DNA of 64,000 nucleotides from Actinotignum timonense (lineage in GTDB: Bacteria; Actinomycetota; Actinomycetes; Actinomycetales; Actinomycetaceae): contig NZ_LT706966.1 in NCBI RefSeq assembly GCF_900155575.1, forward strand, positions 1,051,492 through 1,115,491. The letters run 5' to 3'. Positions 3,808 to 54,792 of this stretch are shown here, piece by piece. The notes under the pieces are model-generated. The model was not told the DNA's origin, did not search any database, and saw only the letters and a program-made list of their open reading frames with translations. The stretch's first letter is position 1. Every line of letters begins with the position of its first letter. Both the position numbers and the translations under genes were made by a program.

Positions 3808-3862
3808 ACGCACGGTTCCACCCCGGGGCGGGCCCGTGGGAGAATGGGCAACGGAGGTAACG

Positions 3863-5262: not shown

Positions 5263-5373
5263 GTGTCCAACAGTAGCGCATAGTGTCATGACGTGCAAGA
5301 TGTGTGCTTGTGGCAATAATGTGTGTGTGCTTTACTTGTCACGAGTGATATTACGTGAAACGGAGATACGTTC

Positions 5374-5634: not shown

Positions 5635-5647
5635 AAGGGGAACGGCG

Positions 5648-6960: not shown

Positions 6961-7141
6961 CAACTAACACGCGGCCACCAGGCCGGCTAACGAGACCAGC
7001 CCGGAGGTACTGGTCTTTGGATGCTCGCTTGGGTAAGTCCTGGCAGTTCCATCGATTCTTCCCTTCCATCGACGCTGATAGTTGGTTTGCTGCTTCTATT
7101 ATGCGTGAGTTGGTGGGGTGGGCGCGCTTCCCATTGCGCGC

Positions 7142-7193
7142 GGGCTGGCTGGCTCTTGTTACTCCTAGAGGGTCAGCCAGCCCTATTCTTCTT
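7142..7193 (+). terminator. Terminator-like hairpin between left-end operon and rep-like gene
   Basis: GGGCTGGCT at 7142-7150 pairs with AGCCAGCCC at 7175-7183, followed by TATTCTTCTT. The loop is long (24 bases). The 6961-7218 gap otherwise holds no gene I can support. Confidence 0.5.
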
Positions 7194-7218
7194 CAACTCG
7201 AAGGGGAGGTGAGCACCC

Positions 7219-8511: not shown

Positions 8512-8537
8512 TTCTGATTTTTAGAGAGGAGGTTGTT

Positions 8538-9326
8538 ATGGACACACACGTTGAGCGCAGTGTTGTGGGCGTGCCCAAGGCGTTGCTGGAAGATGAGCGG
8601 CTTTCGTTTGATGCTCTCGCGTTGGCGGTTTACTGCCTGGGGCTGGGTGAGAATGCTTCGGCGGGTTATCGGGCACTGGCTGGCCGTGGGTTGAGTGAGG
8701 CCCGCACCCGCAAAGCACTCTCGGAGCTGGAAGCGGCCGGCTACCGTTACAGGGGCGCGGATGGCCGGGTGGTGATCTCGGATACTCCCATGACAACCCC
8801 TCCAACGCAAGCCACAGCAGCCGCGCCGGCAGATACCGCAAGCACAACCGGCACGGGCCGGGGGATGGTGCGTGAGCGTCGGGAACGCCGCGAAATCCCC
8901 GCGGGTGTTGATGTGGTGGATGAGTGTGTACCCGCACCGCTAGCGAACCTGCTGAAAGGGGTGGGTCGTGAGCGTGCCACAGGATATCTCGAGGAAGCAC
9001 TCGATCACGGCTGGACGAAACGCGCAATCTACAACGCTTTGAATAACAACCCATTCCCGTCGGCCGCGAAGAATCCAGTGGGTCTGGTGATTTATCGGAT
9101 CCGGCATATCGCATCCAAGCAGCCACGCGGCACCAAACAACCACCAACACCGGTTGGTGGTCACGTGCCGGCTCCAGAAGAAAAGCCGGGCGCGGCCTCG
9201 CCGGTGGTGTTTAGTCTTCCTGCCCGCCAGCCACCAGACACGAAGCGTGGCGTGGGTTCCCAGGTTGGCGGGCAGGAAAACCTCCGGGCGATACGCGAGC
9301 GAATAAGCACGCTTCGGGGTGTTTAA
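8538..9326 (+). CDS. Replication-initiator-like winged-helix protein B (paralogue of A)
   Basis: A 262-residue protein with the same two-domain plan as its upstream neighbour. The N-terminal winged helix (LLEDERLSFDALALAVYCL, LSEARTRKALSELEAAGY) is joined by a shorter linker to a C-terminal domain reading LDHGWTKRAIYNALNNNPFP and VIYRIRHIASKQP. The paired C-terminal domains show the two genes arose by duplication. AGGAGG 8 bases upstream gives a strong start at 8538. The gap to protein A is only 26 bases, so both are probably made together and may form heteromers. Confidence 0.6.
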   Translation: MDTHVERSVVGVPKALLEDERLSFDALALAVYCLGLGENASAGYRALAGRGLSEARTRKALSELEAAGYRYRGADGRVVISDTPMTTPPTQATAAAPADTASTTGTGRGMVRERRERREIPAGVDVVDECVPAPLANLLKGVGRERATGYLEEALDHGWTKRAIYNALNNNPFPSAAKNPVGLVIYRIRHIASKQPRGTKQPPTPVGGHVPAPEEKPGAASPVVFSLPARQPPDTKRGVGSQVGGQENLRAIRERISTLRGV

Positions 9327-9392
9327 AGTGTCGTAACGGTAAGGCACCATTAGAGACAAGAGAAGAAACAAATTACGAGGAAGAACCAGACC

Positions 9393-10412
9393 ATGGACAT
9401 CACCCGAATCAAGAACCGGAAGGCGTATGTGCTTGCCGGTATAGGAATTATCGCTATCGCACTCATTGTCGGTATCGGCGTGTATTTGCGTGGGGTATCG
9501 GCCACCAAGGATGCCCGCGCGGACTACACCAAAGCAAGCGCCGAGTATGCGGAATTGAAGACCTCCCTGGAGGAGCAAATTAAGACGGTTGATTTCCAGC
9601 CTGTCCAGTGCTCGAACGACGGGGGTAACCCCGAGAGCTGTTTTAGGGCGCTGGAGTTGCGTGCCTCGATTGAGGGCGAGCTGGCCAAGCCTGTAGATGC
9701 TCGCAAGGCCGAGACTCTTGGTGCTAAGGAGGCACGCGCGGCTGCGACCGCTATTTCCGAGCGTGTGAGCGTGTTGCGCGGGTGGGGTAGCGAACTCGAA
9801 ACCAAGATGGCCGAACTCGATGAGGCATTCTCTAAGAAAGTCACTCGGTATGTGACTGGTAAGGGCGAGGATGGCACCTCGGTCTTGAAGCGGTGTGAGA
9901 AGGTCTTGGGCGAAGCGCGTCAGCTCGCTGGTGAGGCGACTGGGAAGGTTGCTGATGGTGGGATTATCACCTCGATGAACCAGAAAGCAGACGGCCTAGA
10001 GGAAGAATGCGCTCGGGTGCGAGATAAGCACGGTGAGATGCGGTGGCGTGAGGTTCAAGAACGCGTCGCGGCGCTGGGTTTCCAGATCCATGACTTGGAG
10101 GACGCGATGAAGAAAACCCGCGCCGCTATCGGGACGGTCGCACTGCCTGACCAAGCCGTGCAGCCCGAACAGGCCGCTTCCTCGGCTGGCTCTTCAGCGT
10201 CTTCGTCGTCTTCGTGGGGGAGCGACGACACAGGTTATGAGGCGCCTGCTCCTGCGGCGGCTCCGGCCCCAGCCGCGCCTGCTCCCGCAGCTCCTGAGCC
10301 TGCACCTGCTGACAATGGTGGATGGGTAGACAGCGGATGGACTATGGACGGCCCCCCTGTTTGCAGCGAGGGTGATACCAACGGCAACTCGTGGTTTGTC
10401 CCCTGTCCGTAA
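9393..10412 (+). CDS. Membrane-anchored coiled-coil protein with Pro/Ala stalk
   Basis: A 339-residue protein with one N-terminal membrane segment (about 12-33) and the rest predicted outside the cell. Residues 45-245 are charged and heptad-like (long coiled coil) with paired Cys residues around 70-85 and further single Cys. Residues 250-305 are a Ser then Ala/Pro-rich stalk, and the last 30 residues hold two more Cys (PPVCSEGD, WFVPCP), so a small disulphide-bonded tip is likely. Not recognised as a named family. It precedes the VaFE adhesin and Pro-rich wall protein, so a role in mating-pair contact is a reasonable inference. Confidence 0.65.
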   Translation: MDITRIKNRKAYVLAGIGIIAIALIVGIGVYLRGVSATKDARADYTKASAEYAELKTSLEEQIKTVDFQPVQCSNDGGNPESCFRALELRASIEGELAKPVDARKAETLGAKEARAAATAISERVSVLRGWGSELETKMAELDEAFSKKVTRYVTGKGEDGTSVLKRCEKVLGEARQLAGEATGKVADGGIITSMNQKADGLEEECARVRDKHGEMRWREVQERVAALGFQIHDLEDAMKKTRAAIGTVALPDQAVQPEQAASSAGSSASSSSSWGSDDTGYEAPAPAAAPAPAAPAPAAPEPAPADNGGWVDSGWTMDGPPVCSEGDTNGNSWFVPCP

Positions 10413-40049: not shown

Positions 40050-40085
40050 TGTATTTGCACGTATTTCGACACTAGAATGGTCTTT
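40050..40085 (+). promoter_or_regulatory. Leaderless promoter of the RloA-like gene
   Basis: TGTATT (40050-40055), 17 bases, TAGAAT (40073-40078), then seven bases to ATG 40086. No ribosome site. The remaining 39923-40049 shows nothing recognisable. Confidence 0.55.
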
Positions 40086-41378
40086 ATGATACTCCTCGGT
40101 GTTGGCGGCGCTAACTTTAGAAGTTTGCGTGATGAATGGGAGCTGTCCCTCCTCCGCCCTTCGTTGCGGCATAACATTCCACCCGAAGGTGAATTGTGGC
40201 GTGAGCACGTATGGCCATGCGCCGCGATTTACGGTGCCAACGCTTCGGGCAAGAGCACCGTGCTGGAGGCACTTAACTTCATTCGAGACGCTGTTTACAA
40301 TTCCGCACGCTCCTGGGCTAGTGCCGATAAGTTGCCCGTGCCTCCTTTTGCACTGGACCCGGAGAAACGGAACGCGGATACCTCGTTGTGGATTGATTTC
40401 GTGACGGATGGTATTCGCTACGTCTATAGCTTCACGCTCAATGAGAGAGCGATTGTTCGCGAAGAATTACGGGCCTATTACTCGACTCGCGCCACAACGC
40501 TTATTGATCGGGACGTGCGCGGGCATAAGGTTCACCCCACGCGGGTGGGGAAGATCAATGAGGTTTCACCCCGTGAGCTGGTTCTTTCGCGCGCCGCTGT
40601 TCTTGGTGCCAAGGTTTTAGCCGACCTCGCACGCACAATCGGCAGAGAATTACTCATGTATCGCGTAGGTAACTCCGATTATGATCTGCAGGTTCATAAG
40701 CTCACCAGCGACCTTTCTAAAAATATTGCCAAGCGGCGGCTCTATGCCAGCTTGGCAAAGGTCGCTGATGTGGGGATTGACGATATTAGTGTTGAGTCGA
40801 GGGAATTCCCGCCCGAATTACTGGATATGTTCAAGAAGCTGATTCCCGAGGAACACCAGGATGAGGAAATCACGGCTGAACTAGTTAAACAATTCGCTTT
40901 AGCTCTGCGTTTTTCCCATAAGGGTGCGAAGGATTCAATCACCTTCGCCGCTGAACAAGAATCCCTCGGTACCACATCCTGGCTCGCGTTAGGGAGTTTA
41001 GCTGTCGAAGCTTTGCGTACGGGAAAAGTTGTATGCGTGGATGAGATTGACGCGAGTTTGCATCCCATGTTGGCAACTGAGCTCATTGCTGCTTTCCAGG
41101 ATCCAGAGCTGAATACCAATGGTGGTCAGATCATTTTCACGAGCCATAACCCTTATTTCCTCTCGCACGAATCTGGTACCGACTTGATGCCGGGACAGGT
41201 ATGGCTGACGGAAAAAAATAATGAGGGTGCTACTGATCTTTTCTCCGTGGCCGATTTCCCTGACGTGAAGCCTGGCACTGATATGGCCAGCTTGTATATG
41301 TCGGGCCGTTTAGGCGCTACGCCGTTACTTGAACCCTGGCTGTTCCGGAAAATGATCGGCGGTCACGGTGATGGTTAG
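40086..41378 (+). CDS. RloA/AbiLi-like AAA ATPase (anti-phage)
   Basis: A 430-residue ABC/OLD-type ATPase. Walker A is GANASGKS at 50-57, preceded by the FRSLRDEWELSLL start typical of AAA_15/21 defence ATPases. Signature and Walker B (TTSWLALGSLAVEAL, VVCVDEIDASLHP) lie near 300-325 and the H-loop FTSHNPYFLS near 350. With the overlapping RloB-like gene it matches the RloAB/AbiL arrangement, related in plan to PARIS (ATPase plus TOPRIM effector). GC is lower than the flanks, consistent with transfer. ATG 40086 is preferred over ATG 40077 from the -10 spacing. Confidence 0.85.
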   Translation: MILLGVGGANFRSLRDEWELSLLRPSLRHNIPPEGELWREHVWPCAAIYGANASGKSTVLEALNFIRDAVYNSARSWASADKLPVPPFALDPEKRNADTSLWIDFVTDGIRYVYSFTLNERAIVREELRAYYSTRATTLIDRDVRGHKVHPTRVGKINEVSPRELVLSRAAVLGAKVLADLARTIGRELLMYRVGNSDYDLQVHKLTSDLSKNIAKRRLYASLAKVADVGIDDISVESREFPPELLDMFKKLIPEEHQDEEITAELVKQFALALRFSHKGAKDSITFAAEQESLGTTSWLALGSLAVEALRTGKVVCVDEIDASLHPMLATELIAAFQDPELNTNGGQIIFTSHNPYFLSHESGTDLMPGQVWLTEKNNEGATDLFSVADFPDVKPGTDMASLYMSGRLGATPLLEPWLFRKMIGGHGDG

Positions 41379-41964: not shown

Positions 41965-43293
41965 ATGACCTTGGGAAATACGCACCACGCACAGGAACCG
42001 GATAGGAACGACGGCGCGCCTGCCCCGCTCCATATCGCTATGACCTCGGTGCATACCTCCCCACTGGCCACTCCCGGATCCGCCGATGCCGGCGGCCTCA
42101 ACGTGGTGGTGACCAATACCGCCCAGGCCCTCGCCCGCGCCGGGCACCGGGTCGATCTGGTCACCCGCGCCAGCGAACCCGGCCAACCCTATATGCATGA
42201 GGTCATGCCGGGCGTACGTGCATTCTTCTTACCGGCTGGCCCGCGCCACCCCGTGGCGAAAAGCCACACCGATGGCCTCATCGCCCCTTTCACAGTGGAA
42301 TTTCGCCGGTGGATGGCCGAGCACGGCAGCGGCGTCGATCTTATCCACTCCCACCACTGGTTCGCGGGCGTGGCCTGCCTGCCCGTCGCCCAGGAAACCG
42401 GGCGCCCTCACGTGCAGTCTTTCCATTCGGTAGCTGCGCGGGAAGGCCAAAATCTTGCCGACGGCGAACCCGCGGAATCCTCCGGGCGGGTGCCCGGCGA
42501 GGCGCGCTGCGTGCGCGAATCAGACCTCATTATTGCGGTATCCCAAGCGGAAAAAGAGATGATCGCGCAGCGCTACGGCACCCCGCCCTGCCCGGTCGAG
42601 ATCGCGCATCCGGGCGTGGATATTGAGATGTTCCACCCGGCCCGCGCTGGCGGAGTCGTTGCCGCCTCACCGGCCGCTGCTCCCGGTGCCACGCGCGATG
42701 CCGCGCCCGACTGCGTCACCGAGGTGACCGGAGGGAGGGACTACGTTTTCTTCGCCGCCCGCCTCCAACCCCTGAAAGCCCCGGATTTAGCGATTCGCGC
42801 GCTCGCGGAGCTGCCCGCCGGCACCCGCCCGCTCCTCGTTATTGCCGGGGCGGCCTCCGATGACTTCGCCGGCTACGAGGACCACTTGCGCGCCGTCGTA
42901 ACAGAAACCGGAATGGAAAGTGACGTCCGCTGCATCGGGCCGCTCCCACGCACCGGCCTCGCGGCCTTCCTCGCCCACGCGCAGCTCCTCCTCAACCCCT
43001 CTTTCTCGGAAACTTTTGGGATTATCAACGTGGAAGCTGCCGCTTGCGGCACCCCTGTGGTGGCCTGGGATTCCTCCGGGATTCCCGAATCGGTGCACGG
43101 CGGCGTGACGGGCACCCTGTGCCGCAGCCGCGAGCCGCGCGAATGGGCCGGCGCGGTGCGGGCCTACCTGGACGATCCGGATTTGCGGGCTCGGCACGGC
43201 GCCGCGGGGCGCGCCTTCGCCGAATCGCGCACCTGGGACGCGGTCGCGCGCGATTACGCCGCCGCCTACCGCACACTCGGGAGGAACGCATGA
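41965..43293 (+). CDS. MshA-like GT4 glycosyltransferase
   Basis: A 442-residue GT-B glycosyltransferase. The N-terminal domain has TSVHTSPLATPGSADAGGLNVVV, the MshA-type acceptor loop, and DLIHSHHW. The C-terminal donor domain has FFAARLQPLKAPDLAI and the family motif NPSFSETFGIINVEAAACGTPVV with the two Glu residues. MshA transfers GlcNAc to inositol phosphate in mycothiol synthesis. TAGGCT six bases before ATG 41965 suggests a leaderless start. It overlaps the PIG-L deacetylase gene by four bases, the next enzyme type of that pathway. Other mycothiol genes (mshC, mshD) are not in the window. Confidence 0.82.
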   Translation: MTLGNTHHAQEPDRNDGAPAPLHIAMTSVHTSPLATPGSADAGGLNVVVTNTAQALARAGHRVDLVTRASEPGQPYMHEVMPGVRAFFLPAGPRHPVAKSHTDGLIAPFTVEFRRWMAEHGSGVDLIHSHHWFAGVACLPVAQETGRPHVQSFHSVAAREGQNLADGEPAESSGRVPGEARCVRESDLIIAVSQAEKEMIAQRYGTPPCPVEIAHPGVDIEMFHPARAGGVVAASPAAAPGATRDAAPDCVTEVTGGRDYVFFAARLQPLKAPDLAIRALAELPAGTRPLLVIAGAASDDFAGYEDHLRAVVTETGMESDVRCIGPLPRTGLAAFLAHAQLLLNPSFSETFGIINVEAAACGTPVVAWDSSGIPESVHGGVTGTLCRSREPREWAGAVRAYLDDPDLRARHGAAGRAFAESRTWDAVARDYAAAYRTLGRNA

Positions 43294-44294
43294 GCACCGC
43301 CGGCGGAACCAACGCGCACACTGACGCGCGCACCAGCAGTCAGACCCGCGCGGGCACCAACGCGATCCACTACACCTGGGACCCCGGCGACCCGCTCTTC
43401 GCCCGCACCCTTTTCCTCCACGCCCACCCGGACGACGAAGCGATCCAAGCCGGCGGCCTCACTGCGCTCCTCACCGCCGCCGGGCATCGCGTCAGCATCC
43501 TCACGTGCACCCGCGGCGAAGAAGGCGAAGCGGTTCCCGGGACCCTGCCCGCCGGGGCGGGGGAGGCCGAACTCGTTGCCCGGCGCGAAGCGGAAATCAC
43601 TCGAGCGCGCGCCATCCTCGGGGTTACGGACGGCTTCTGGCTCGGCACCGTGCCCGCCCTCGCACCCGGCGCCGCGCCGCGCCGCTACCGCGATTCCGGG
43701 ATGGCCTGGATCGCACCCGGGGTCGCCGGCCCCGCGCCCAGCGCCGGACCGCGCGCCTTTTCCCGCGCGGACCTGAGCGAAGAAATCGCAGATGCGCGGG
43801 CACTCCTCGCGCACGTGCGGCCCACCGTCATTATTGGGTACGACGCCGCAGCAAGCTACGGCCACCCCGACCACGTCCGGGTGCATCACCTGGCTCGCGC
43901 CCTAGGCCGGGTGAGCGGAATTCCGGTACTCGAGCTGGCATCCACTCCCGGGCAGGCCGGATGGTGCTACCGCAACGCCCGGGCTCATGAAGCCACCGTG
44001 GTGGCGGCGCTGCGCTGCTATGCCTCCCAGCTGACCGTAGTTGATCGTGCGGATCCTGGGCTTGCCGGCTTGCCGGTTATTGGCGCCGCGGGAGCCGGCG
44101 CCCCGGCACTGGGCCCTGCGCCCGACTCCGAACCCGCCCCGCAGCTGCTTATCCGGCACGTGGGCGGCCAGCTCCAGGAGCTTCCGCTCTGGCCGGGATT
44201 GTGCCCGGCCGAGTGGGCGCCGTCGTTCCCCGCTGTGGATTCTTCCGCGCGTGCCGCTAGCATGCCCCAGTCTTCCACGCCGGTGGCGGAATAA
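43290..44294 (+). CDS. PIG-L/MshB-like zinc deacetylase
   Basis: A 334-residue deacetylase. LFLHAHPDDEAIQAGG carries the zinc-binding AHPDDE motif near 50-56, and SYGHPDHVRVHHLA the second zinc/His motif near 190. The length fits MshB, which deacetylates GlcNAc-inositol. ATG 43290 overlaps the glycosyltransferase stop, indicating a two-gene operon. The first 20 residues and the last 70 (Ala/Pro-rich) look unstructured. Mycothiol synthesis is an inference from the pair; a lipid or glycoside deacetylase is the alternative. Confidence 0.82.
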   Translation: MSTAGGTNAHTDARTSSQTRAGTNAIHYTWDPGDPLFARTLFLHAHPDDEAIQAGGLTALLTAAGHRVSILTCTRGEEGEAVPGTLPAGAGEAELVARREAEITRARAILGVTDGFWLGTVPALAPGAAPRRYRDSGMAWIAPGVAGPAPSAGPRAFSRADLSEEIADARALLAHVRPTVIIGYDAAASYGHPDHVRVHHLARALGRVSGIPVLELASTPGQAGWCYRNARAHEATVVAALRCYASQLTVVDRADPGLAGLPVIGAAGAGAPALGPAPDSEPAPQLLIRHVGGQLQELPLWPGLCPAEWAPSFPAVDSSARAASMPQSSTPVAE

Positions 44295-44363: not shown

Positions 44364-47300
44364 GTGACTCCTCTCTTCAGACGCTCATCTCGCCGGCATT
44401 CGGCTCGTGAATCTCTTTCTCGTGATACCGCCGCGGTTCCCGAGGCCGCCGCGCTGCCCGCGGGCGACCGTGACCCCGCGGAACCCGGGCAGGATACGCC
44501 CGTCGCTTCCTCACCGGCCCCGGCCCCTGCCGAGTCCGCCGCCAGCGCGGAAGCCGCCGGACATTCCGCCACTCCAGCTCAGCAGGCACCGCAGGCCGGC
44601 GCTAGCGGCGTCGCACCGCACGGTGCCTCGGAAACCGCAGCTGTGCAACACGGAACTGAAAGTGACAGTAGTGGAGCGGAAGCGGAGGACCATCCCGCGC
44701 CGCTACCCGCCCCGCAGCGCGAAGAGCTCGTGTCGCGGGCCTATGCGGCCTGGCAGGAGGAGCTGGCCGCGCGGGCCGAGCGCGCGGCGGAGAATCTGGC
44801 CGCGCGGGTATGTATTGATCTCACCCATCCGCACCCGACCGGGGGAGCACAGTTTTCTTCCGGGGCGCCCACCCGCCTCACCTCGCTTATTCGGGAGGAG
44901 CGCAGCCAGCAGGAGGCCCTCGCTACCTGGCGTACCCTGCGGGACCAGGTGGCGCGCGCCGCGGAAGAATACGGGTACGCCCCGATTCAGCTGGCCAGCG
45001 GCAATCTGACGTGGACGGAGCTCCCGCCGCGCCGGCCCAGTGATGAGCTGGAGCCCGGCTATGAGGACACCGGCGAACTCAAGCTCGACCCGGAAGCGAT
45101 GCGGGCCTACGCGGAGGAAGCCGCTGTTCACGCGGCGGCCGGCGGTTCTGGCTCGAACGGTGCAGAGGCAGCCCTCGGGGAGGGGTCGGCCGGATTCGAG
45201 GAGTCGCTCGAGCAACCCGCCACCCAAGCCGCCTCGGAAGCTGCCGGGCAAAGCACCGCGCAAGCCGCCACTCAAAACAGCGAAGAAACCCGGCAGGTGC
45301 GCGAAGTTAGCGTGCCGATTGTGTACCGCCTGCTGCAGGTGGAGGATGTAGGCACCGATGCCCTTATCCAAACCACCCCGGCCCTGTCCGTCAATCCGGA
45401 TATTGTGAGCGCACTGCGCCAGCACGGCGCCCCGGTGCGCGAATTGGCCCAGCTCACCCGGGTGGAGCGGGCCACCGAAGATGAACTTATTACCCGGGTG
45501 CGGCGTCTATCGCATCTCTACCTGCCCGGGGCTTCCTACCGCCCGCAGGTGCTGCTGGGCATGTTTGCCGATCCGGCCGCGCGCGCGATTACCGACGCGG
45601 AGCTGCTGCGCCCGGTCATGATTCGTTCCGGGGTGCTCGCGGCGATTGCCGGGGATCGCGGAACCCACCAGCTCACCAGCGCCCCGCTCCCGCCGGCCGA
45701 AAAACGTGACCGGGCCCCCGAAGGCGAACGCGGGGTGGGCGATTTGGATGTGGCTGAACTTGCCGCGGTGGAAGCCGTGGCAACTGGCCGCGACGTCGTG
45801 ATCGATACCCCGCCGGGAAGCGCGGACGTGACCACCCTGGTCGCGATTGCCGCGGACGCAGCCGCATCCAGCCGCTCCGTCCTCTATATTCCCGGCACCC
45901 GGGCGCGGCGCGCTGCGGTGACCGCGCGGGCCGCTGAGCTCGGCGTAGGTGAACTACTCATTGATCTTTCTGATATTAACGGCGCGGCTTTGCGGCTGCG
46001 CCAGGGCCTGCGCCAAAAGTTCCCGCAGATCGACGAAGAACGCACCCTGGCCGTGCGCCGCGATCTCAAGGCGGCGCGCCGCAGCCTGCGCGGCTACGTG
46101 AACGCCCTGCACGCCGTCGATCCGGTGTGGAATACCTCGGTATATGACGTGCTTGAGCATTTGGCTGAGCTCGCCGCCCAGCCCCAGGGCCCGGCCACGA
46201 AGGTGCGCCTGGATGCCACCGCCGCGGCCCGGGTACGTGAGGATCGCGAGGCGGTGCTCGAACGGCTCGCGGAGGCGAGCCGCGCCGGGGCTTTTAGCGG
46301 GGGCGGGAATTCGGAATGGTTGCGCGCGCAGGTGCGCACGGAGGACGACGCCGCCCGCGCCTTCTCCACCGTGACCCGCATGGCCACCGAAACCCTTCCC
46401 CTGGTTATGGAGCAATCCCAGCGGGTGGCCGGGGAGACCGGCCTGGCCCGCCCGAAGACCCTGGCTCAGTGGATGGAACAAATCAAGATGCTCGAAGGGA
46501 TCGCCGATACCCTCGAGGTCTTCAAACCCGCCGTGTATGAGCGCTCAGTTGCCGATATGGTGATCGCCACCGCGAGCGATGAATGGCGCGCCGAGCACGG
46601 CGAAAGCATGAAACGTGCCCAGCGCCGCGCCCTGACCAAGCAGGCCCGCGATTTTGTGCGCCCCGGGATCCGGGTGGCGGATATGCACGCGGCCCTGAGC
46701 GAAGTGGCGCGCCAGCGCGATATTTGGCGCCGCTACAGCGCGGAAAGCGATTGGCCCACCCTCCCCGAGGGCATGACGATGATCCGGGCCACCGCCGCGG
46801 AAGTGGACGGGCAGGTGCGTGAACTCGAAGAATTCCTCCCGCACCGTGCCGGCCTGCGCCGCGAACCCATCGAAAACGTGCTGGCCCTGGTGCGCACCCT
46901 GGTCTCCCAGCGCCGGGTGCTTGATTCCCAGCCGCGCCGCATCGACCTGCTCCACGACCTTGAGGACAGCGGCCTGGGAGATTTCGCCCGCGATATGGCC
47001 CGCCGCGAAGTGAGCGGGGAAGCGGTGGCCGCCGAACTCGACCTGGCCTACACCAACTCTGTGTTCGAGCAGCTCATCGCCCGGAATACCGTGCTGGCCC
47101 AGGCCGGGCCGCAACAGCTGGCCATGCTCGTACACACGGTGCGGGACCTGGATCGCGAACACGTGGAGAGCCTGCCCGGGCCGGTGCTGCGCGCCGCGAT
47201 CACCCATATGCAATCGGTGGCCCGCAAGCAGCGCGAAGAAACCGTGGCGGTGGACCGCTACCTGGCCCGCGCCGGCGTGAGCGCGCTGGCCGACGTGGCC

Positions 47301-49121
47301 GCTTCAGCAACCGCGCTGGTCCAGGCGGCCCGCCCCGTATGGGTGGTGCCCCCGGCTCTGGTCCCGGAGCTCATCCCCACCCTGCCCTGGGCGGATGTGG
47401 TGATTCTGGACGGTATCGAGGATATTCCGCTCGCCGCGGTGGTCGCCCTCATGGCGCGCGGCTCGCAGCTCGTCGTCCTCGGTGACGTGGCGCGGGCGGG
47501 CGCGGATAGCGCACTCGCGGCCCTGGCCGATGCGCTTCCGGTGTGCGAACTTCCCACGTTCCGTGCGCATCACGATGATCTTGCCCTCGCCTGCTTGCGC
47601 ACCCTCGGGTACGACGACGCCGACCGCGCCGCTCCGGCAGGGCGGGTGCGCCGGGCGGACCGCCTGCAGGTGGTGGACGGGCGCGGGGTCCCCTCCCCGA
47701 ATACCGGGATGGTGGAAGCCCCCAGCGCGGAAGTGGACGCGGTGGTGGATGCGGTGGTGGATCACCTCCTCACCCGCCCGGAAGAATCCCTCGCGGTTAT
47801 TACGATTTCGCGTTTGCATGCCGTGCATGTGCGGGCGGCGGTGGAACGCACCATCGCGAATAGCCCGGCCCTGGCCGAGGCGGGCGAATCCGCGTCCAGC
47901 CTGGTGCCGGTGGTGGATATTACCGGTGCGAGCGGGCTGCGGCGCGACCGGGTTATTTTCTCGGTGGGCTTCGGCAAGACGGTCCACGGCCGGGTGCTTC
48001 ATACTTTCGGCCCGCTTACCGAAGCGGAAGGCGCGCGCTACCTGAGCGAGGCACTCCTGGTTCCCAGCCGCTATATGAGTGTCATTTCTTCCCTGGGCCC
48101 CGGCGATATCGGGGTGGATGATCTTTCCGGGGCGGCCCCCCGGCTCCTAGCCACCCTGCTGGAGACGGCCGCCCGGGAAGAACTACTCATCGGTGCGGAC
48201 GAGGACGTGGCCAAGGCCAGCCCGCTGCTCTTCGACCTGGCCGCGCGCCTGCGCGGGCGCGGGCTTTTCACCGCCCTCTACTACGGCTACGACGCCGGCT
48301 TGCGCATCCCCCTGGTTGTTGCCGAACACGAAGGCGATTGGCGGGTGGCTGTTCTGACCGACGACGCCGATTACGTTGCCGAACCATCGCTGCGCCGCCG
48401 GGACCGCTACCGGGTCGAGATGCTCGAGGATTTGGGCTGGAAGGTGGTCCAAACCTTCTCCTCGTCGATTTTCCTTGATCCGGAATCTGAGGCGGACCGT
48501 ATTGAAGCGCTCGTGCGGGTGGTGCGCCGCGATGAGGCCGCCGCGCGCCACCGGGCCGAAGACACCCCCGCATTTGGGGCGGACGTCGCGGATGCGGTGG
48601 ATGAAGCGGATGTTGCTGCGGCGGGTGCTGCTGGGGACGCTGGCGCGTCGGGTGCATCGGGTGCCGCGGGCGTGCCGGGCGCCGGAATGCCGGGCGTTGC
48701 TGACGCGGAAAGCACGGAAGGCGCGGAAGCTCAGCAGGGCGAAGCCGGCGCGGATAACACTTCGAGTACGCACACTCCGGCCCCGGGTAACGCGGCCGGC
48801 AGTGCACAGGCCGGAACTTCCGCGCCGGATCCGGAAGCATCGCGGCGAGCCCGAGGGAAGAAACCCGCGGTGCGGCCGGGCCTGCCGCTGGCCGCCTACT
48901 CGGATGATCAGCTTGATGACATGGTGGCCTGGATTGCCTCCGATGGGGTGGCTCGTAGCTCGGAACAGCTGGTGGAAGAACTGCGGAGCGAACTTGATAT
49001 TCGCCGCCGCGGGCCCCAGGCCGATGCGGTGCTCGGTAATGTGGTGCGCCGCTCCGGCCTGGCCCAGGCCGATGCGGTGCTCGGTAACGTGGTGCGCCGC
49101 TCCGGCCTGGCCCAGGATTAG
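44364..49121 (+). CDS. Giant degenerate SF1-helicase-like protein with REase-fold C-terminus
   Basis: A 1585-residue protein. Residues 1-110 and about 250-310 are disordered. The helicase-like core keeps the plan of actinobacterial UPF1-like/DUF4011 proteins but has lost key residues: the Walker A position reads VIDTPPGSADVTTL (no Lys), Walker B reads VILDGIEDI (no DEAS) and motif VI lacks TRAR. The segment IFSVGFGKTVHGRVLHTFGPL near 1195-1215 is well kept. Residues 1290-1395 resemble the Vsr-like REase_MTES domain (RRRDRYRVEMLEDLGWKVVQTFSSSIF). The C-terminal 190 residues are low-complexity and end in a 48-bp tandem duplication. TAGCGT seven bases before GTG 44364 suggests a leaderless start. 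Probable role in DNA repair or defence. Confidence 0.75.
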   Translation: MTPLFRRSSRRHSARESLSRDTAAVPEAAALPAGDRDPAEPGQDTPVASSPAPAPAESAASAEAAGHSATPAQQAPQAGASGVAPHGASETAAVQHGTESDSSGAEAEDHPAPLPAPQREELVSRAYAAWQEELAARAERAAENLAARVCIDLTHPHPTGGAQFSSGAPTRLTSLIREERSQQEALATWRTLRDQVARAAEEYGYAPIQLASGNLTWTELPPRRPSDELEPGYEDTGELKLDPEAMRAYAEEAAVHAAAGGSGSNGAEAALGEGSAGFEESLEQPATQAASEAAGQSTAQAATQNSEETRQVREVSVPIVYRLLQVEDVGTDALIQTTPALSVNPDIVSALRQHGAPVRELAQLTRVERATEDELITRVRRLSHLYLPGASYRPQVLLGMFADPAARAITDAELLRPVMIRSGVLAAIAGDRGTHQLTSAPLPPAEKRDRAPEGERGVGDLDVAELAAVEAVATGRDVVIDTPPGSADVTTLVAIAADAAASSRSVLYIPGTRARRAAVTARAAELGVGELLIDLSDINGAALRLRQGLRQKFPQIDEERTLAVRRDLKAARRSLRGYVNALHAVDPVWNTSVYDVLEHLAELAAQPQGPATKVRLDATAAARVREDREAVLERLAEASRAGAFSGGGNSEWLRAQVRTEDDAARAFSTVTRMATETLPLVMEQSQRVAGETGLARPKTLAQWMEQIKMLEGIADTLEVFKPAVYERSVADMVIATASDEWRAEHGESMKRAQRRALTKQARDFVRPGIRVADMHAALSEVARQRDIWRRYSAESDWPTLPEGMTMIRATAAEVDGQVRELEEFLPHRAGLRREPIENVLALVRTLVSQRRVLDSQPRRIDLLHDLEDSGLGDFARDMARREVSGEAVAAELDLAYTNSVFEQLIARNTVLAQAGPQQLAMLVHTVRDLDREHVESLPGPVLRAAITHMQSVARKQREETVAVDRYLARAGVSALADVAASATALVQAARPVWVVPPALVPELIPTLPWADVVILDGIEDIPLAAVVALMARGSQLVVLGDVARAGADSALAALADALPVCELPTFRAHHDDLALACLRTLGYDDADRAAPAGRVRRADRLQVVDGRGVPSPNTGMVEAPSAEVDAVVDAVVDHLLTRPEESLAVITISRLHAVHVRAAVERTIANSPALAEAGESASSLVPVVDITGASGLRRDRVIFSVGFGKTVHGRVLHTFGPLTEAEGARYLSEALLVPSRYMSVISSLGPGDIGVDDLSGAAPRLLATLLETAAREELLIGADEDVAKASPLLFDLAARLRGRGLFTALYYGYDAGLRIPLVVAEHEGDWRVAVLTDDADYVAEPSLRRRDRYRVEMLEDLGWKVVQTFSSSIFLDPESEADRIEALVRVVRRDEAAARHRAEDTPAFGADVADAVDEADVAAAGAAGDAGASGASGAAGVPGAGMPGVADAESTEGAEAQQGEAGADNTSSTHTPAPGNAAGSAQAGTSAPDPEASRRARGKKPAVRPGLPLAAYSDDQLDDMVAWIASDGVARSSEQLVEELRSELDIRRRGPQADAVLGNVVRRSGLAQADAVLGNVVRRSGLAQD
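49017..49112 (+). repeat. 48-bp tandem duplication at end of helicase-like gene
   Basis: Positions 49017-49064 and 49065-49112 are identical except T/C at 49040/49088. Each encodes QADAVLGNVVRRSGLA. In-frame, so the protein simply gains 16 residues. Confidence 0.9.
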
Positions 49122-49131
49122 GCGCGCGGCC

Positions 49132-49533
49132 GTGGCGAGCAAGGCACATTCCGCACGCACCCACCGGGTGGTAGATAACAGCCAGGTGGCAGATAGCGGC
49201 CAGGGGGATGGTGCTCAGCAGGCAGCACGCGTCCACCGGGCGGTGGTGCGCCTCTCCGAGGTAGATGCCCGGCGGGTGGAAAGTGGCGAACTCAAGGATG
49301 CCGCCGAAGCCCTCCAGCGCCTCGCGCGCGGGGACGGGGGAGCGACCCTACCGCACCCGGATACGCCCACCAAAAAATCCGCGTTAAAAAAGAACGCCCT
49401 GGGGGCCACTACCGTGGCACCCCGGGACGCGGCCGTATCCGCACGTGATATTCGCATGCGGGATATCGTGGCGCGCACCGCTCACGAACAGAGCATTCTT
49501 GACGAGCGCCCGCCCCACTTCGGCAAGCTCTAA
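49132..49533 (+). CDS. Hypothetical protein downstream of helicase-like gene
   Basis: A 133-residue soluble protein with no recognised family. The middle part VHRAVVRLSEVDARRVESGELKDAAEALQRLARGDGG is helical and charged; the tail RDIVARTAHEQSILDERPPHFGKL is polar. GTG 49132 is chosen because it lies ten bases after the upstream stop and gives the least overlap; the ribosome site is weak. It is probably co-transcribed with the helicase-like gene and may be its partner. The following 133-base gap holds no gene. Confidence 0.6.
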   Translation: MASKAHSARTHRVVDNSQVADSGQGDGAQQAARVHRAVVRLSEVDARRVESGELKDAAEALQRLARGDGGATLPHPDTPTKKSALKKNALGATTVAPRDAAVSARDIRMRDIVARTAHEQSILDERPPHFGKL

Positions 49534-49666: not shown

Positions 49667-50050
49667 TTAGTCGCGCTTGGCACGCAGCTCATCACGGATC
49701 TCCTTGAGGAGGATGAGCTGGGGATCTTCCGGGGCCTCCGCGGCCGGCTTGGCGTGGCGTTCACGCATCTTATTCATGGGGAGTACCAGGAAGAAGTACA
49801 GCGCGAAAGCCACGATGAAGAAATTGACCACCGCGGTGAGGAAGCTCCCGAATTGGATTTCGCCCCCACCCAGGTGCCACACAAAATTACCGTCAAAATT
49901 CGGCTGCCCGAAAATTGCGGCGATAAGCGGCATGAGAATATGGTCCGTCAGGGACTTCACCACGGCTGAGAAAGCCGCGCCGACGATAACACCGACGGCG
50001 AGGTCCATGACGTTACCCTGCATAATGAATTTCTTGAAACCCGCGAGCAC
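49667..50050 (-). CDS. mscL: Large-conductance mechanosensitive channel MscL
   Basis: A 127-residue pentameric pressure-release channel of the cytoplasmic membrane. It begins VLAGFKKFIMQGNVMDLAVGVIVGAAF (TM1) and has TM2 around FLTAVVNFFIVAFALYFFLVLP, then the charged C-terminal helix LLKEIRDELRAK. GTG 50050 is preferred over the upstream in-frame start at 50086 because it matches the usual MscL N-terminus and AAAGGA lies upstream. Confidence 0.95.
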   Translation of the reverse strand: MLAGFKKFIMQGNVMDLAVGVIVGAAFSAVVKSLTDHILMPLIAAIFGQPNFDGNFVWHLGGGEIQFGSFLTAVVNFFIVAFALYFFLVLPMNKMRERHAKPAAEAPEDPQLILLKEIRDELRAKRD

Positions 50051-50100
50051 CTTCCATCCTTTCGCGCGGAGCGCCACCGGGACCACCCCGGTGGCAGAAA

Positions 50101-50733
50101 CTATGGAGGGGCTACCAGCACTGCCCGCAAAGAATCCGCGGCAGCATAGCCCACGATAAGATTAGCGTCTTTTTCGCGAACAACCAGGTAGAGCACTCGA
50201 TATGTGACACCCTCGGAGAGCATGCCGGCGTTCTTTTCCTCTTCACCGATCCCCACCACCGCGGCTCGTTCCACCACGCGGACCGCTCCGGCCTCCGTGC
50301 TGTGTTCTGGGGCCGGAGCATATAAGCCAATAAAATTACCCGGCTCAATAAAACTCCCGGTCCCATCGGAAGCCACCCGCACCGCCACCACCACGTGCCC
50401 GGCGGGCGGATCGCGTAAGAATTCTTGGGAGAGCAACACCCCGCGGGCCAGGGGATACCCGGCCGGAATATTGGCGGCCAAGCGTTGCCCGCTGGCCTCA
50501 GCTTCCGAAGAAAGCGCATTTTCCGGAATGAGATCCCGGGCCACGGTGCGCGCCTCCACATCACGCCCGCTCAGCACATGCCCGGCCGCTAGATTGCGGC
50601 GCGCGACCAGCACTTGCCCGGTTTCCGGGTAGCGGCGCTCAATTGCCTGAAGAATAGTGAAAAAAGCCAGGAGGGCAACCCCGGCCAGCAGCAGGTGGCG
50701 TGCCCGCCACAGCCGCGTGTGGATACCAGTCAT
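50101..50733 (-). CDS. SAF-domain membrane protein (CpaB-like)
   Basis: A 210-residue protein with one N-terminal membrane helix (about 12-27) and an SAF domain outside (VLVARRNLAAGHVLSGRDVEARTVARDLIPENAL, then GYPLARGVLLSQEFL). This is the layout of CpaB/RcpC, which helps assemble Flp-type pili, but no other Flp genes lie near, so it may serve another wall process. GTG or ATG at 50733 gives the natural N-terminus with basic residues before the helix. Probably single or followed by mscL on the same strand. Confidence 0.8.
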   Translation of the reverse strand: MTGIHTRLWRARHLLLAGVALLAFFTILQAIERRYPETGQVLVARRNLAAGHVLSGRDVEARTVARDLIPENALSSEAEASGQRLAANIPAGYPLARGVLLSQEFLRDPPAGHVVVAVRVASDGTGSFIEPGNFIGLYAPAPEHSTEAGAVRVVERAAVVGIGEEEKNAGMLSEGVTYRVLYLVVREKDANLIVGYAAADSLRAVLVAPP

Positions 50734-50841
50734 AGCTTGAGGCTAGCGAGGAATGCTCAGCCGCAAACCAGAACTAGGCCCGCCTGTGGATACCGGCAGC
50801 GTTTCGCGAAGCTGGGGATAAACCGAGCGGCGTCGTCGTAC

Positions 50842-51054
50842 TTAGTTTTGCGTGGAGCTCCCACCCGAGGAACGCGAGTCATTGTGGTAGAAACCCGAGC
50901 CCTTGAACACGATTGCGCTAATCCCTGCCATTACCTTCCGCAATGCGTCTTTCCCGCACTCCGGGCACGTGACCAGGGCGGCGGCTGTCATCGACTGGTG
51001 CGCATCAAAATGGTGACCGCAATTGTCACAACGGTAACTGTAGGTAGGCACGTT
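50842..51054 (-). CDS. FmdB-family zinc-ribbon protein
   Basis: A 70-residue protein starting VPTYSYRCDNCGHHF with a second CxxC in TCPECGKDALRKV, the FmdB putative regulatory zinc ribbon. The GSGFYHND motif is typical of the family. GTG 51054 is chosen because AAAGGA lies upstream and the family starts there; an ATG at 51099 is in frame. Function of FmdB proteins is poorly known. Confidence 0.88.
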   Translation of the reverse strand, partial: NVPTYSYRCDNCGHHFDAHQSMTAAALVTCPECGKDALRKVMAGISAIVFKGSGFYHNDSRSSGGSSTQN

Positions 51055-51158
51055 CTTCCTTTCCGGGCCGGTGGCCGAGCCGAGGGGCGGCCGGCACAAG
51101 CCGTACGGCGCATTATTCTAGCGCGTGACACGTGCCCTCGGGAAAGTCGCCCGCAACC

Positions 51159-51794
51159 CTAGTGCAGGGGAGAATGTCCGCCCAGGTCCACCACGGTTTC
51201 GGGGAGCAGAACGTAACGCACCGGCACGTCCATCTCATCGTGGGGGAGGGGCGTGTGCACGTATTCTTCGGGCCAAATCAGGGCGCCGACCGGGGTGGCG
51301 CTATCGAGCTGCTTGAGCACGCGGTCATACCAGCCTCCGCCCTGGCCCAGGCGCACGCCGTCGTGATTGACGAGCAGCGCGGGGATAAAAGCGGCGTCGA
51401 CCTCGCGCAACACCATGGAATCGAGGGCTTCGCCCCGGGGTGCGGGCGGGCGGCCGGGTGCCTGGTCGGTAAGATTTTCCGCGCCGGTGTAGCGCGCCCA
51501 CTGGCGGGTGAGCCCGGGGCCGAGCTTGGGCACAAGGAGGGTGCGCCCGCTGGCCACAATGGCATCGCATAGCGCCCGGGTACCCGGTTCGTTGTTGACG
51601 GAAATATAGCCGGCAACCGTGGTGGCGGTGCCGAGGAAATCCAGCACGGTGGTGACCCAGCGGGCTTCGGCTTCCTCCCGGGCGGCGGGCGTGCGCTTAG
51701 CCCGAGCCGCGCGCACCGTTGCGCGCAAGGCCTGTTTGGCTTCCGGCACCGCCATCGCGGAGACATCAGGAAGAGATAGGGTGTGGTCGGTCAT
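51159..51794 (-). CDS. 5-formyltetrahydrofolate cyclo-ligase
   Basis: A 211-residue folate-recycling enzyme that converts 5-formyl-THF to 5,10-methenyl-THF with ATP. It has KQALRATVRAARAKR near the N-terminus, the substrate loop VNNEPGT and the ATP-binding hallmark GVRLGQGGGWYDR near 150. The length is normal. Neighbours on the same strand (FmdB, SAF protein, mscL) commonly accompany it in actinobacteria. ATG 51794 fits. Confidence 0.92.
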   Translation of the reverse strand: MTDHTLSLPDVSAMAVPEAKQALRATVRAARAKRTPAAREEAEARWVTTVLDFLGTATTVAGYISVNNEPGTRALCDAIVASGRTLLVPKLGPGLTRQWARYTGAENLTDQAPGRPPAPRGEALDSMVLREVDAAFIPALLVNHDGVRLGQGGGWYDRVLKQLDSATPVGALIWPEEYVHTPLPHDEMDVPVRYVLLPETVVDLGGHSPLH

Positions 51795-51955: not shown

Positions 51956-53182
51956 GTGAAAACAGTAGCCGAGCAACTCGATGAATTCTTAAAGGTCGCC
52001 CAGCCTTTGGAGGCTCTCGATGTGGAGCTTGCCGACGCGATGGGCTGTATTCTTGCCGAAAACGTTGTCGCGACTGTTGATGTTCCTCACACCGACCTGG
52101 CGGCCCTGGATGGGTACGCGGTGCGCGCGGACGAAACTTTCGGTGCCGAGCCTGCCCGTCCGGCGCATTTCCCGGTGACCGATGATATTTTCGCCGTCAC
52201 CACCGACCGCATCGCCCACACTCCCGGCGCGGCGGCCCGCATTGCTTCCGGGGCGCGGATGCCCACGGGCGCGGACGCCGTTGTTCCCCTTATCGATACG
52301 GATCACGGGGAAGCGCAGGTGGATATTACGGCGCGCGTGGCCCCCGGGGAGAATGTGCGCGCGCAGGGTGAGGACCTGCGGGCCGGCACCACGATTCTGG
52401 AGGAAGGCACCCGTATTGGGGCGCGCCATATTGCCTTGCTGGCGGCGGCCGGGCGCGACCGGGTGCGGGTGCGGCCGGCGCCGCGCGTCGTCGTGATGTC
52501 TGTGGGCGATGAACTGGTGGCGCCCGGAAAAGCTTTGGGTAACGGAAAGATTTACGACGCGAATTCGCACGCGCTTGCCACCGCGGTACGTAACGCCGGG
52601 GCGGTTGCGTACCGCGTACCGGCGGTTTCCGATGACCGGCATCTCTTGCGCGAGTCTTTGGAGGACCAGCTGCTGCGCGCCGACGTTATCCTCACCACCG
52701 GCGGTTTGAGTTACGGGGGTGGAGATACCCTCAAGGAGGTCCTGTCTCCGCTCGGTTCGATGCGGTTCGACGCCGTCGCTATGAATCCGGGCCGGCACGT
52801 CGGGGTGGGTACCATCGGGGGCGACGGCGCAAATTCGGCACTCATGTTCTGCCTGCCGGGCAACCCGGTGGCCGCGCTGGTGTGCTTCGAGGTATTTGTG
52901 CGCCCCTCGCTGCGGAAAATGGCCGGCTACAAGCACGTGACCCCGCGCTCCATCCGGGCTCGGGCGGTGCGCGGGCTGCTCTCCCGGCCGGGCGTGCAGG
53001 ATTACGTGCGGGTGCAGGTGTACGGCGATCCGCGCGCCGGCTACGAATTTGACCCGGTGGGGGATGTGGAGCTGCTCTCGCTGGCGAATTTCGCGAAATC
53101 GAATGGGCTAGCGGTGGTTCCCGCGGATAAGGAAAGCGTGGGAATCGGCGACGAATTGGAGTGCATGATTCTCAACGGGTAA
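51956..53182 (+). CDS. moeA: MoeA-type molybdopterin molybdotransferase
   Basis: A 408-residue enzyme inserting molybdenum into molybdopterin-AMP. Domain order is as in MoeA: N-terminal VPHTDLAALDGYAVRADE, GARMPTGADAVVP, VRAQGEDLRAGTTILEEG, then the MogA-like domain with SVGDELVAPGKALGNGKIYDANS, TTGGLSYGGGD and MNPGRHVGVG, and a C-terminal beta domain. GTG 51956 follows GAGGAGG. No other cofactor gene is adjacent. In actinobacteria moeA-like genes often sit beside the cyclo-ligase, as here (divergent). Confidence 0.93.
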   Translation: MKTVAEQLDEFLKVAQPLEALDVELADAMGCILAENVVATVDVPHTDLAALDGYAVRADETFGAEPARPAHFPVTDDIFAVTTDRIAHTPGAAARIASGARMPTGADAVVPLIDTDHGEAQVDITARVAPGENVRAQGEDLRAGTTILEEGTRIGARHIALLAAAGRDRVRVRPAPRVVVMSVGDELVAPGKALGNGKIYDANSHALATAVRNAGAVAYRVPAVSDDRHLLRESLEDQLLRADVILTTGGLSYGGGDTLKEVLSPLGSMRFDAVAMNPGRHVGVGTIGGDGANSALMFCLPGNPVAALVCFEVFVRPSLRKMAGYKHVTPRSIRARAVRGLLSRPGVQDYVRVQVYGDPRAGYEFDPVGDVELLSLANFAKSNGLAVVPADKESVGIGDELECMILNG

Positions 53183-53310: not shown

Positions 53311-54792
53311 GTGGGATTCCAGGGATACGCGTTGATGGCAGTAGTTGTGCTGCTCATGGTCTATGTCATCCCTGGTGTGTATCGGCGGCGCGTCATCCTC
53401 GCTGATGTGCGCATCGACGAACGCTATTCACCCCAGCTACGCACCCTCGCGCTGCCGGACGGAACGGCGGGCGTGGAAACTGGCGGGCCAACCGGGGCCA
53501 TTTTTTTCCGGAAGCCGGAGGTCATCATGGCAGAGAACGACGAACGCGATATTCTTCCACCCAGCGCGGGGCGTAATGTGCGCACCCTGGCGCGGGAACG
53601 CGCGCGCCGTAAAGCACGTATTTCCCAACGCGCGGCGAACCGCCAGCGCGGTTTTGTGGTTGCGGGCGCTTTAGGCTTGCTCATTGTGGTGCTCGGCGCT
53701 CTTGCTTTTACGGCGACGATGCCCCGTTGGATTTTCTACGTTGCTGTGGGCATCGGGGTGCTGTACGGGGCGGGCTTCGGCTACCTCCTCAGTGAAATGG
53801 GGAAAGCAACCGCTCGGGACCGCGAGGATATTGCCGAGCTCACCGAGGAACTTGGTATCCGGAAGACCCGCGGGGCGCAGCGCCATTCGCGCCGCCCGGC
53901 TCGCCCGCGCCCCGGGCGTTCGGCGGTCTCGGCGGCTTCCGCCCATTCGGCTTTGAGCGCGGCCAGCGCGGCCCTGGGAAGCGATGACCTCGGGGCGCTG
54001 ACGGCCGATGCGAGCCGCAGCGCGGATCTGGGGCGGAGTGCTGATCTCAGCCGGAGTGCGGCGAGCGCGAGCGCGGGGAGTGGGAGCGCGGCTACCACGC
54101 CGACGGCTGCCTCCGCGGCCACCGGCGGCGCAGATGCAGCTGGTGAAGGTGAAGCTGAAGCTGCTGGCGATGCTCGTGACGGTGGCGCTGGTGAAGCTCG
54201 CGATGCTCAGGCCGCGAACGCCGATGAATATGAAGCCGGGGTGAACCCGGGAAAAGCACGGAGCCGGAACGCGGGGGCGCGGGCGCCTAAGCGCCGTTCC
54301 GGCATTTCGGTGACCCTTGAACAAGGGATTATCGCCGCGGAAGATTTCGCTCCTATCGCCGGTTCGCAACGCGAACAAGCGGAGAAACTTCCCAAGCGTT
54401 TCGTGGCCGGAGCGGTTCCGCGCCGCCAGCTGTCCAGCTATACGCTCAAGCCGCAGATTCAACAGCGCACGGTAGCGCCCTACCAGGCTCCTGAAGCCCC
54501 GGTAGCTCCGGTGCCCTACCGCCCCAAGGAGATTGGCGAGCGGGTGACTTTCGTGGATGCTGTGGCGCAAGGTGCGGCGGCTTCCACAGTGCCGGCGGGT
54601 CAAGCTGCTCCGCAAGGTACCGCTCAGGCTGCGGTGGGGCAGGCAGCCGCTGTGACAGCGCCTGCTGGCCAAGCAACGCCGGCATCGATGGCCGAAGCCG
54701 CATTGCCTCCCGCACAGGCAGCTGCACCTGCGCATGATGGTCTTGCAGGTGGGGCGGCTCTGGACGAGCTGCTGCGCAAGCGCCGCGCGTAG
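53311..54792 (+). CDS. Membrane protein with long Ala/Ser-rich tail
   Basis: A 493-residue protein. A helix at 6-23 starts the protein; two more (about 112-132 and 138-158) follow a basic stretch. Residues 185-310 are low-complexity Ser/Ala/Asp/Gly, and 345-493 Pro/Ala-rich with RRQLSSYTLKPQ. The plan (short first helix, double helix, disordered tail) recalls SepF- or divisome-linked actinobacterial membrane proteins, but no family can be named. TAAAGT six bases before GTG 53311 suggests a leaderless transcript. A terminator follows at 54864. Confidence 0.7.
   Translation: MGFQGYALMAVVVLLMVYVIPGVYRRRVILADVRIDERYSPQLRTLALPDGTAGVETGGPTGAIFFRKPEVIMAENDERDILPPSAGRNVRTLARERARRKARISQRAANRQRGFVVAGALGLLIVVLGALAFTATMPRWIFYVAVGIGVLYGAGFGYLLSEMGKATARDREDIAELTEELGIRKTRGAQRHSRRPARPRPGRSAVSAASAHSALSAASAALGSDDLGALTADASRSADLGRSADLSRSAASASAGSGSAATTPTAASAATGGADAAGEGEAEAAGDARDGGAGEARDAQAANADEYEAGVNPGKARSRNAGARAPKRRSGISVTLEQGIIAAEDFAPIAGSQREQAEKLPKRFVAGAVPRRQLSSYTLKPQIQQRTVAPYQAPEAPVAPVPYRPKEIGERVTFVDAVAQGAAASTVPAGQAAPQGTAQAAVGQAAAVTAPAGQATPASMAEAALPPAQAAAPAHDGLAGGAALDELLRKRRA

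Follow-up and report, generated by a model that had tools for sequence, protein, structure and literature searches.

A 1585-residue protein encoded in a 64,000-nucleotide stretch of the Actinotignum timonense genome (hereafter, the window) had lost the catalytic residues of both an SF1 helicase and a Vsr-like nuclease; the folds of both enzymes are predicted to persist, and selection on them was strong. We regard this protein, with moderate confidence, as an ancient, vertically inherited DUF4011-type pseudo-helicase-nuclease, present across the order, that would act as a non-catalytic nucleic-acid-binding or docking scaffold with a housekeeping function and not in phage restriction.

The source genome was 2.3 Mb in length and consisted of 19 contigs; its nearest named relatives were Actinotignum schaalii and A. 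sanguinis (89–90% identity, lineage Actinomycetaceae). The open reading frame on the forward strand was confirmed as a real gene. Its parts and its neighbors are listed in Table 1; loci, genomes and family codes are designated below by L-, G- and f-numbers, respectively.

Table 1. Parts of the pseudo-helicase-nuclease gene and features of its locus (positions in the window).
Feature	Position	Strand	Remarks
DUF4011-type pseudo-helicase-nuclease gene, stop included	44364..49121	+	1585 aa, GTG start
N-terminal linker, low conservation, residues 1–115	44364..44708	+	conservation; dN/dS 0.33–0.51
DUF4011-like N-terminal region, residues 116–435	44709..45668	+	conserved DLTxxHPxGxAQ
SF1 (UPF1-like) helicase core, residues 436–1250	45669..48113	+	motifs I, II, VI gone; motif V GFGKT[VP]HGRV kept
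Vsr-like REase fold, residues 1286–1381	48219..48506	+	catalytic Asp and Glu replaced
Conserved C-terminal segment AYSDDQLDDMVAWIASDG	48846..49067	+	conservation; dN/dS 0.026–0.034
48-bp tandem duplication, 2.1 copies	49015..49116	+	C-terminus 16 aa longer in source strain
mscL, convergent neighbor conserved at locus	49667..50086	-	Pfam
SAF-domain protein, FmdB-type zinc ribbon, 5-formyltetrahydrofolate cyclo-ligase	50101..51794	-	Pfam; rest of conserved locus
Glp (MoeA-like divisome protein)	51956..53182	+	440.7 bits vs. cut-off 475 for longer ORF

The N-terminal linker started with VTPLFRRSSRR, where Phe5 was almost invariant in 41 family sequences, and the family signature of the Vsr-like region was RIPL...VLTDDxxYVAEPSLRRRDR. 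The C-terminal segment is probably a small DNA- or protein-binding domain. The 48-bp duplication was absent from L002, L072, and L073, the C-termini of which stop after the first copy. Among the Pfam models, MTES_1575 REase (PF18741) matched the C-terminal domain above its gathering score (43.1 vs. 38.2 bits), and the helicase and DUF4011 (PF13195) models gave no match in the 1585-residue protein at E up to 1. Intact orthologs had the domain order DUF4011, SF1 helicase, MTES_1575 REase; five of the six orthologs scanned passed PF13195 (L095, L097, L099, L101, and L109; L105 failed).

According to the preliminary description of this DNA, the Walker A lysine, DEAx, and TRAR motifs were all replaced, and alignment with intact orthologs bore this out: motif I was DTPPGSADVTTL against KGPPGTGKSQTI, motif II was LDGIED against FDEASQ, and motif VI was LLVPSRYM against TRAR-type residues. 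We failed to find the Walker A pattern [AG]x4GK[ST] in the 1585 residues. The sole GxGK[ST] match, GFGKT at residue 1202, was rejected as a displaced Walker A because the intact orthologs have motif V (GYGKTPHGRV), and not motif I, at the aligned position; an intact Walker A motif elsewhere in the protein, which would have spoken against that description, was not present. At the two catalytic positions of the REase, inferred from the intact orthologs (IDL and VExDG), the protein had IPL, where Pro replaces Asp, and VLTDD, where Leu replaces Glu.

These replacements were common to the family. The family alignment retained 41 of 49 loci, near-duplicates (L002, L003, L004, L006, and L074) and frame-broken loci (L007, L065, and L066) being left out. 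The Walker A Lys, the motif VI Arg pattern, the REase Asp, and the REase Glu were each found in 0 of the 41 rows. The Asp position was occupied by Pro in all 41 and the Glu position by Leu, Val, Thr, Ala, or Ser. The REase counts are alignment-dependent: in L103 and L109, an Asp seems to survive at a distance of one or two columns. The loose motif II pattern was matched by a single row (L055), and the DE pair at this motif was also kept in L044 and L054, making three rows with DE. Since none of the aligned members had the Walker A Lys, the loss goes beyond chance or a single bad gene. Both enzymes of the helicase-nuclease are predicted to be catalytically dead, the nuclease surviving as a fold only; retained nuclease activity was rejected because both catalytic positions were replaced in every row. 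The earlier statement that a REase-fold C-terminus persists thus holds for the fold, by Pfam and by the model described below, and not for the nuclease residues. Likewise, in the proposal of "a structural or nuclease protein" derived from a helicase, the structural part is supported, within the limits of sequence evidence, by the predicted SF1 fold, the absent ATPase motifs, strong purifying selection, and family-wide presence, and the nuclease part is left unsupported by the substitution of both REase positions throughout the family.

Selection was estimated against three Actinotignum relatives. The dN/dS value was 0.10–0.12 for the whole gene, 0.015–0.049 for the helicase core, and 0.008–0.048 for the pseudo-REase; the C-terminus had the value given in Table 1, the DUF4011-like region had 0.09–0.18, and the linkers had 0.19–0.51. 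The neighboring genes gave 0–0.06 (MscL), 0.06–0.09 (5-formyltetrahydrofolate cyclo-ligase, 5FCL), 0.04–0.14 (SAF), and 0.017–0.040 (Glp; for L073 calculated from a later start, the first value of 1.5 being an alignment artefact). The folded core is therefore preserved about as strictly as adjoining housekeeping genes. In more distant pairs, dead forms gave 0.08–0.30 and one intact pair gave 0.25, values that are rough because dS exceeded 2 in two pairs. A decaying pseudogene or an artefact of the gene model, which could explain the gene broken over two frames at three of the 49 loci (L007, L065, and L066) and the few matches that cross internal stops (G147 over three), is extremely improbable: one long frame was present at 46 of the 49 loci, dN/dS was far under 1, and the predicted fold was confident. 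This explanation was rejected on selection and predicted fold.

Conservation within the family was highest outside most of the former active sites. Motif V had a mean identity of 0.83, and residues 1301–1375 of the pseudo-REase (0.61–0.76, with invariant Asp1333, Tyr1337, Arg1344, and Arg1346) were among the top stretches, together with the C-terminal AYSDDQLDDMV (0.73), the middle FERSxxDMVxATAs (0.72), and HPxGxAQ of the DUF4011-like region (0.71). Since these stretches are non-catalytic, selection acts on parts other than most of the old active sites. The new invariant residues in so conserved a pseudo-REase could also be read as a hidden, unusual NTPase or nuclease activity that uses the replacement residues. 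We consider this quite unlikely, as the catalytic Asp position is Pro in the entire family alignment and motifs I, II, III, and VI are conserved only near the core average (0.47–0.58 against a mean of 0.55).

The structure prediction proposed in the preliminary description as a check yielded an SF1 core fold, in agreement with its assignment of the protein as SF1-helicase-like. The AlphaFold2 model of residues 436–1400, built with 77 sequences, had a pLDDT of 89.5 and a pTM of 0.76, and its middle part was an all-helical insertion. In a structural second look, the top matches were spliceosome chains (8c6j_U, Z 16.3, rmsd 8.9), which we take to be the helicase Aquarius; the row named Aquarius, 4pj3, had Z 13.9. 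UPF1 (9qdq, Z 15.6, rmsd 4.9, 366 aligned), IGHMBP2 (4b3g_B, Z 15.1, rmsd 4.4, 371 aligned), Dna2 (5ean, Z 14.3), and UvrD-type SF1 chains (Z 13.9) were also matched. Given the last value, the fold alone points to SF1 and does not separate UPF1-like helicases from other SF1 members. With Foldseek, TM-scores calculated across the entire helicase model were low (0.16–0.30). The sequence profile matched SMUBP-2, NAM7, UPF1, and DNA2; the core is thus assigned to SF1 by its predicted fold and to UPF1-like helicases by its sequence profile.

Residues 1250–1400, modeled alone, had a pLDDT of 89.4. In the second look, this REase model matched the putative endonuclease-like protein 3hrl (Z 10.5), the homing endonuclease I-Bth0305I (Z 9.5), and Vsr (1cw0, Z 8.2, 100 aligned); Foldseek against PDB gave no match at E < 0.001. 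The likeness to Vsr is therefore based on the second look together with the Pfam match. The RAP domain of human FASTKD4 (9gek) had a similar fold at Z 7.8, although values below 8 may reflect a common arrangement, and two rows of the Toxoplasma mitoribosome, presumably RAP proteins, had Z 8.4 (9i05) and Z 7.5 (9g6k). RAP domains bind RNA and are not known to cut it. They constitute a separate eukaryotic family, unlike the pseudo-REase.

The history of the losses was read from 81 aligned rows, 71 of which were core orthologs from within the order, representing 16 of its 20 family codes; partial loci L111–L140 were unused for the motif I count, so that motif I was read without f10, f12, f16, and f20. 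Five of the 71 rows were intact at all five positions (L095–L099, families f4 and f17). The Walker A Lys was missing in 66 of the 71, including L170 from f17. The last four of the 81 rows were of the defence type, with motif I intact. Outside the order, the f38 rows (L152–L154 and L158) and L155 had GR[ST] instead of GK[ST], and L156 was intact, but with none of the four neighbors considered below. The f38 loci L152, L153, L154, and L158 had mscL nearby, Arg in place of the Walker A Lys, and a replaced REase Asp with the Glu kept. The f38 orthologs represent a second, milder decay series.

The trees were built without the motif columns, and both carried warnings of long branches or odd letter composition. 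They required two changes at motif I, two to three at motif II, four at motif VI, and five at each of the REase Asp and Glu, counts that alone do not tell loss from gain and that, for the REase Asp and Glu, vary with the alignment. Many independent ATPase losses were rejected, as only two motif I changes were needed. The intact state is taken as ancestral because the outgroup was intact. The pattern then reads as two losses of the ATPase, one inside the order and the other on the f38 branch, with the other residues lost later and in steps. Grouping of L170 with the three intact f17 rows was not rejected by the AU test (p 0.447), and a third ATPase loss, within f17, is possible. Very diverged dead orthologs on long branches were observed in L170 (f17, G212), L169 (f14), and L167 (f18); family f17 thus has intact and dead forms.

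With the C-terminal third as the query, every one of the 151 family genomes sampled gave a match, which covers all 36 genera and all six genomes of the genus. Among the matches listed, most lay in frames of about 1300–1850 codons, with a few in shorter frames (e.g., 441, 1016, and 1114 codons) or in runs over stops (G147 over three). A profile from the 41 family sequences matched 290 of 297 genomes of the order, a count of matches that does not separate this gene from other DUF4011 relatives. Thirteen of the 290 matches had weak E values, from 6e-17 to 3e-5, and family f14 accounted for eleven of these; a longer profile, applied to four of the weak genomes, was strong in G309, G388, and G262 and weak in G180. 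Applied to the seven genomes without a match, it gave a clear match in G163 (E 8e-154) and a partial one in G330 (E 3e-47); the other five had short or weak matches at best, and three of these five assemblies were less than 90% complete. Even genomes of 0.8–0.9 Mb kept the gene, with a frame of 1205 codons in G199 and of 1221 codons in G317. Class-wide sampling gave matches in 85 of 197 genomes, or 69 of 181 without the 16 genomes of the same order, many by short REase pieces. Outside the order, E < 1e-80 was reached by 15 genomes of family f38, by G428 (f25), and by G466 (f45).

The locus was surveyed in 76 core loci, from which the window and three defence-type loci were excluded; some of the 76 are near relatives of one another, and the flanks were often shorter than 6 kb. 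The mscL gene was located downstream in 59 of these loci and, as in the window, on the opposite strand in 57 of the 59. The FmdB zinc ribbon was present in 48, 5FCL in 42, and the SAF protein in 34; at least one of the four was found at 70 loci, the exceptions being L045, L078, L100, L101, L155, and L156. None of these locus neighbors was found at the defence-type relatives L157, L159, and L160. The upstream side was not conserved (kept in 5/76). The gene is most likely inherited vertically, as the locus is common; because the neighbors have different functions, it gives no indication of the pathway.

Upstream, at positions 41965–44294, lay genes for an MshA-like glycosyltransferase and an MshB-like PIG-L deacetylase, each scoring below its curated cut-off and kept, as said, in five of the 76 loci. 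An AAA ATPase similar to the abortive-infection protein AbiLi (PADLOC E 1.4e-73) was encoded about 3 kb upstream (40077–41378). The preliminary description had also suggested a partner encoded by a small overlapping downstream gene. If the open reading frame 48376–49533 was meant, this suggestion was not sustained: the frame was open for 377 codons in the nearest relative (L073) and closed after 70 codons in two of the three close relatives (L072 and L002), its product matched no Pfam model at E up to 1, and the next gene recognized was the convergent mscL.

Glp, the start of which was chosen at 51956 by likely reading, was found within 6 kb in 28 of the 76 core loci. The open reading frame that follows it (53311–54792) had a marginal DUF6667 match (27.5 bits, cut-off 27) and could, by its position, be a GlpR-like partner of Glp. 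Glp itself has been described as an enzyme that was repurposed and whose genomic context is conserved (PMC10522489), and its presence at the locus would fit involvement of the dead protein, alongside the Glp/GlpR divisome system, in cell division or in growth of the envelope. Such a function is fairly improbable: the nearest and most constant neighbor is mscL, which, being convergent, shares no operon with the gene, and proximity alone is weak evidence.

The best curated families for the protein were those of anti-phage systems: ProA (NF058533, 211.4 bits, E 1.7e-62) and Hhe (NF042953, 102.4 bits, E 1.3e-29), with cut-offs of 1500 and 2000 bits, respectively, and PDC-S37 of PADLOC (E 1.8e-65). 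An intact ProA-like protein is also encoded in the same genome. This paralog, L151 (2093 residues, G000:C1:299171–305170), scored 1391 bits with ProA, below the cut-off of 1500; its motifs I, II, and VI were intact, and its REase had the Asp and, as in L160, Met at the Glu position. The L151 locus spans G000:C1:295482–308330, with the gene at 3558–9836 within it. At E up to 1e-60, a threshold that does not count more distant defence relatives, this paralog type was found in 17 of 151 family genomes and nine of 36 genera, including five of six Actinotignum genomes; the copy of G001 had an internal stop.

These likenesses could mean that the protein is still anti-phage, as a dead sensor, regulator, or decoy that is related to ProA/Hhe and cooperates with an intact defence helicase from another locus. 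We find this rather unlikely. Its scores are a small part of the cut-offs, and in the genome search the ProA profile recovered the gene as three pieces of 112, 66, and 43 bits. The same profile gave sub-cut-off matches in seven of the 14 named controls, including E. coli; little can therefore be concluded from a weak match to ProA. The ProA-like type was found in 17 family genomes and the dead protein in all 151, which excludes obligate pairing at E 1e-60, and the gene is retained in the 0.8–0.9 Mb genomes. Defence genes in general have a patchy distribution and a variable locus; the dead protein was instead family-wide, with neighbors common to 70 of the 76 loci. Thus, ProA and PDC-S37, despite being the best-scoring families and having the domain order of the intact orthologs, differ from our protein in distribution, in catalytic residues, and, for ProA, in the curated score, and ProA-like relatives such as L151 keep the ATPase motifs that it has lost. 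Hhe, curated as a defence protein, has a like architecture by name and profile with weaker similarity, whereas our protein has a core distribution and active sites that are gone.

Among other systems, a large DUF4011 gene was described in every isolate of Pseudomonas aeruginosa, where it flanks a defence hotspot (PMC10250203); it is alike in core status by description, and a core DUF4011 gene is therefore not new in itself. MTES_1575 of Microbacterium testaceum, reported to combine an SF-I helicase, a Vsr REase, and a wHTH in one protein (PMC3710099), shares the REase family PF18741 with our protein and additionally has HEPN and transglutaminase domains, neither of which was found in the 1585 residues by Pfam. 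PriA of Deinococcus radiodurans is similar as a bacterial helicase without ATPase: it is reported to have lost ATPase and unwinding and kept DNA binding, with evidence of contact with DnaB (PMC4504706). It belongs to a different helicase family and has a known partner.

Deinococcus PriA is not known to have a nuclease domain. By title, we failed to find a description of the degenerate protein in the literature on ProA/DUF4011/Hhe, MTES_1575, Actinotignum genomics, and pseudohelicases, in which few subscription journals were covered, or in that on Bifidobacterium essential genes, the glp locus, and helicase/Vsr defence.

The scaffold function that we favor could have arisen as follows. The starting point would have been a fusion of an SF1B helicase of the DUF4011 type with a Vsr-like nuclease. 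By the alignment and the outgroup-rooted tree, the common ancestor of most of the order's families had lost the ATPase; loss of the arginine motif and of the nuclease residues followed stepwise, and the protein retained both predicted folds, constrained by a different function. In it, the two RecA-like lobes may combine with the conserved middle region and the remodeled face of the pseudo-nuclease into a nucleic-acid clamp or docking platform, nucleic-acid binding being suggested by the predicted fold. Such a clamp would recognize a DNA or RNA structure and recruit partner proteins, as PriA of Deinococcus binds DNA and DnaB without ATPase. A more far-reaching version is possible, though doubtful: an anti-phage-type helicase-nuclease would have been domesticated early in the order into a (near-)essential, wholly non-catalytic scaffold, the nuclease face of which now serves as a binding surface and which may connect the chromosome with the Glp-FtsZ machinery of cell division. 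If so, a pseudo-helicase would have been maintained through the radiation of the whole order.

A protein of more than 1000 residues is thus matched in nearly all sampled genomes of a large order, without the ATPase residues in 66 of the 71 aligned orthologs. Because the curated families closest to it consist of active anti-phage proteins, annotation by family name probably gives it the wrong role and could make defence genes seem more numerous than they are. The locus, with intact orthologs in some genomes and dead ones in others, offers a natural series for asking what function a helicase-nuclease has after losing its enzyme activities. The broad presence and the strict preservation of the core of this dead enzyme suggest a job that needs no enzyme activity.
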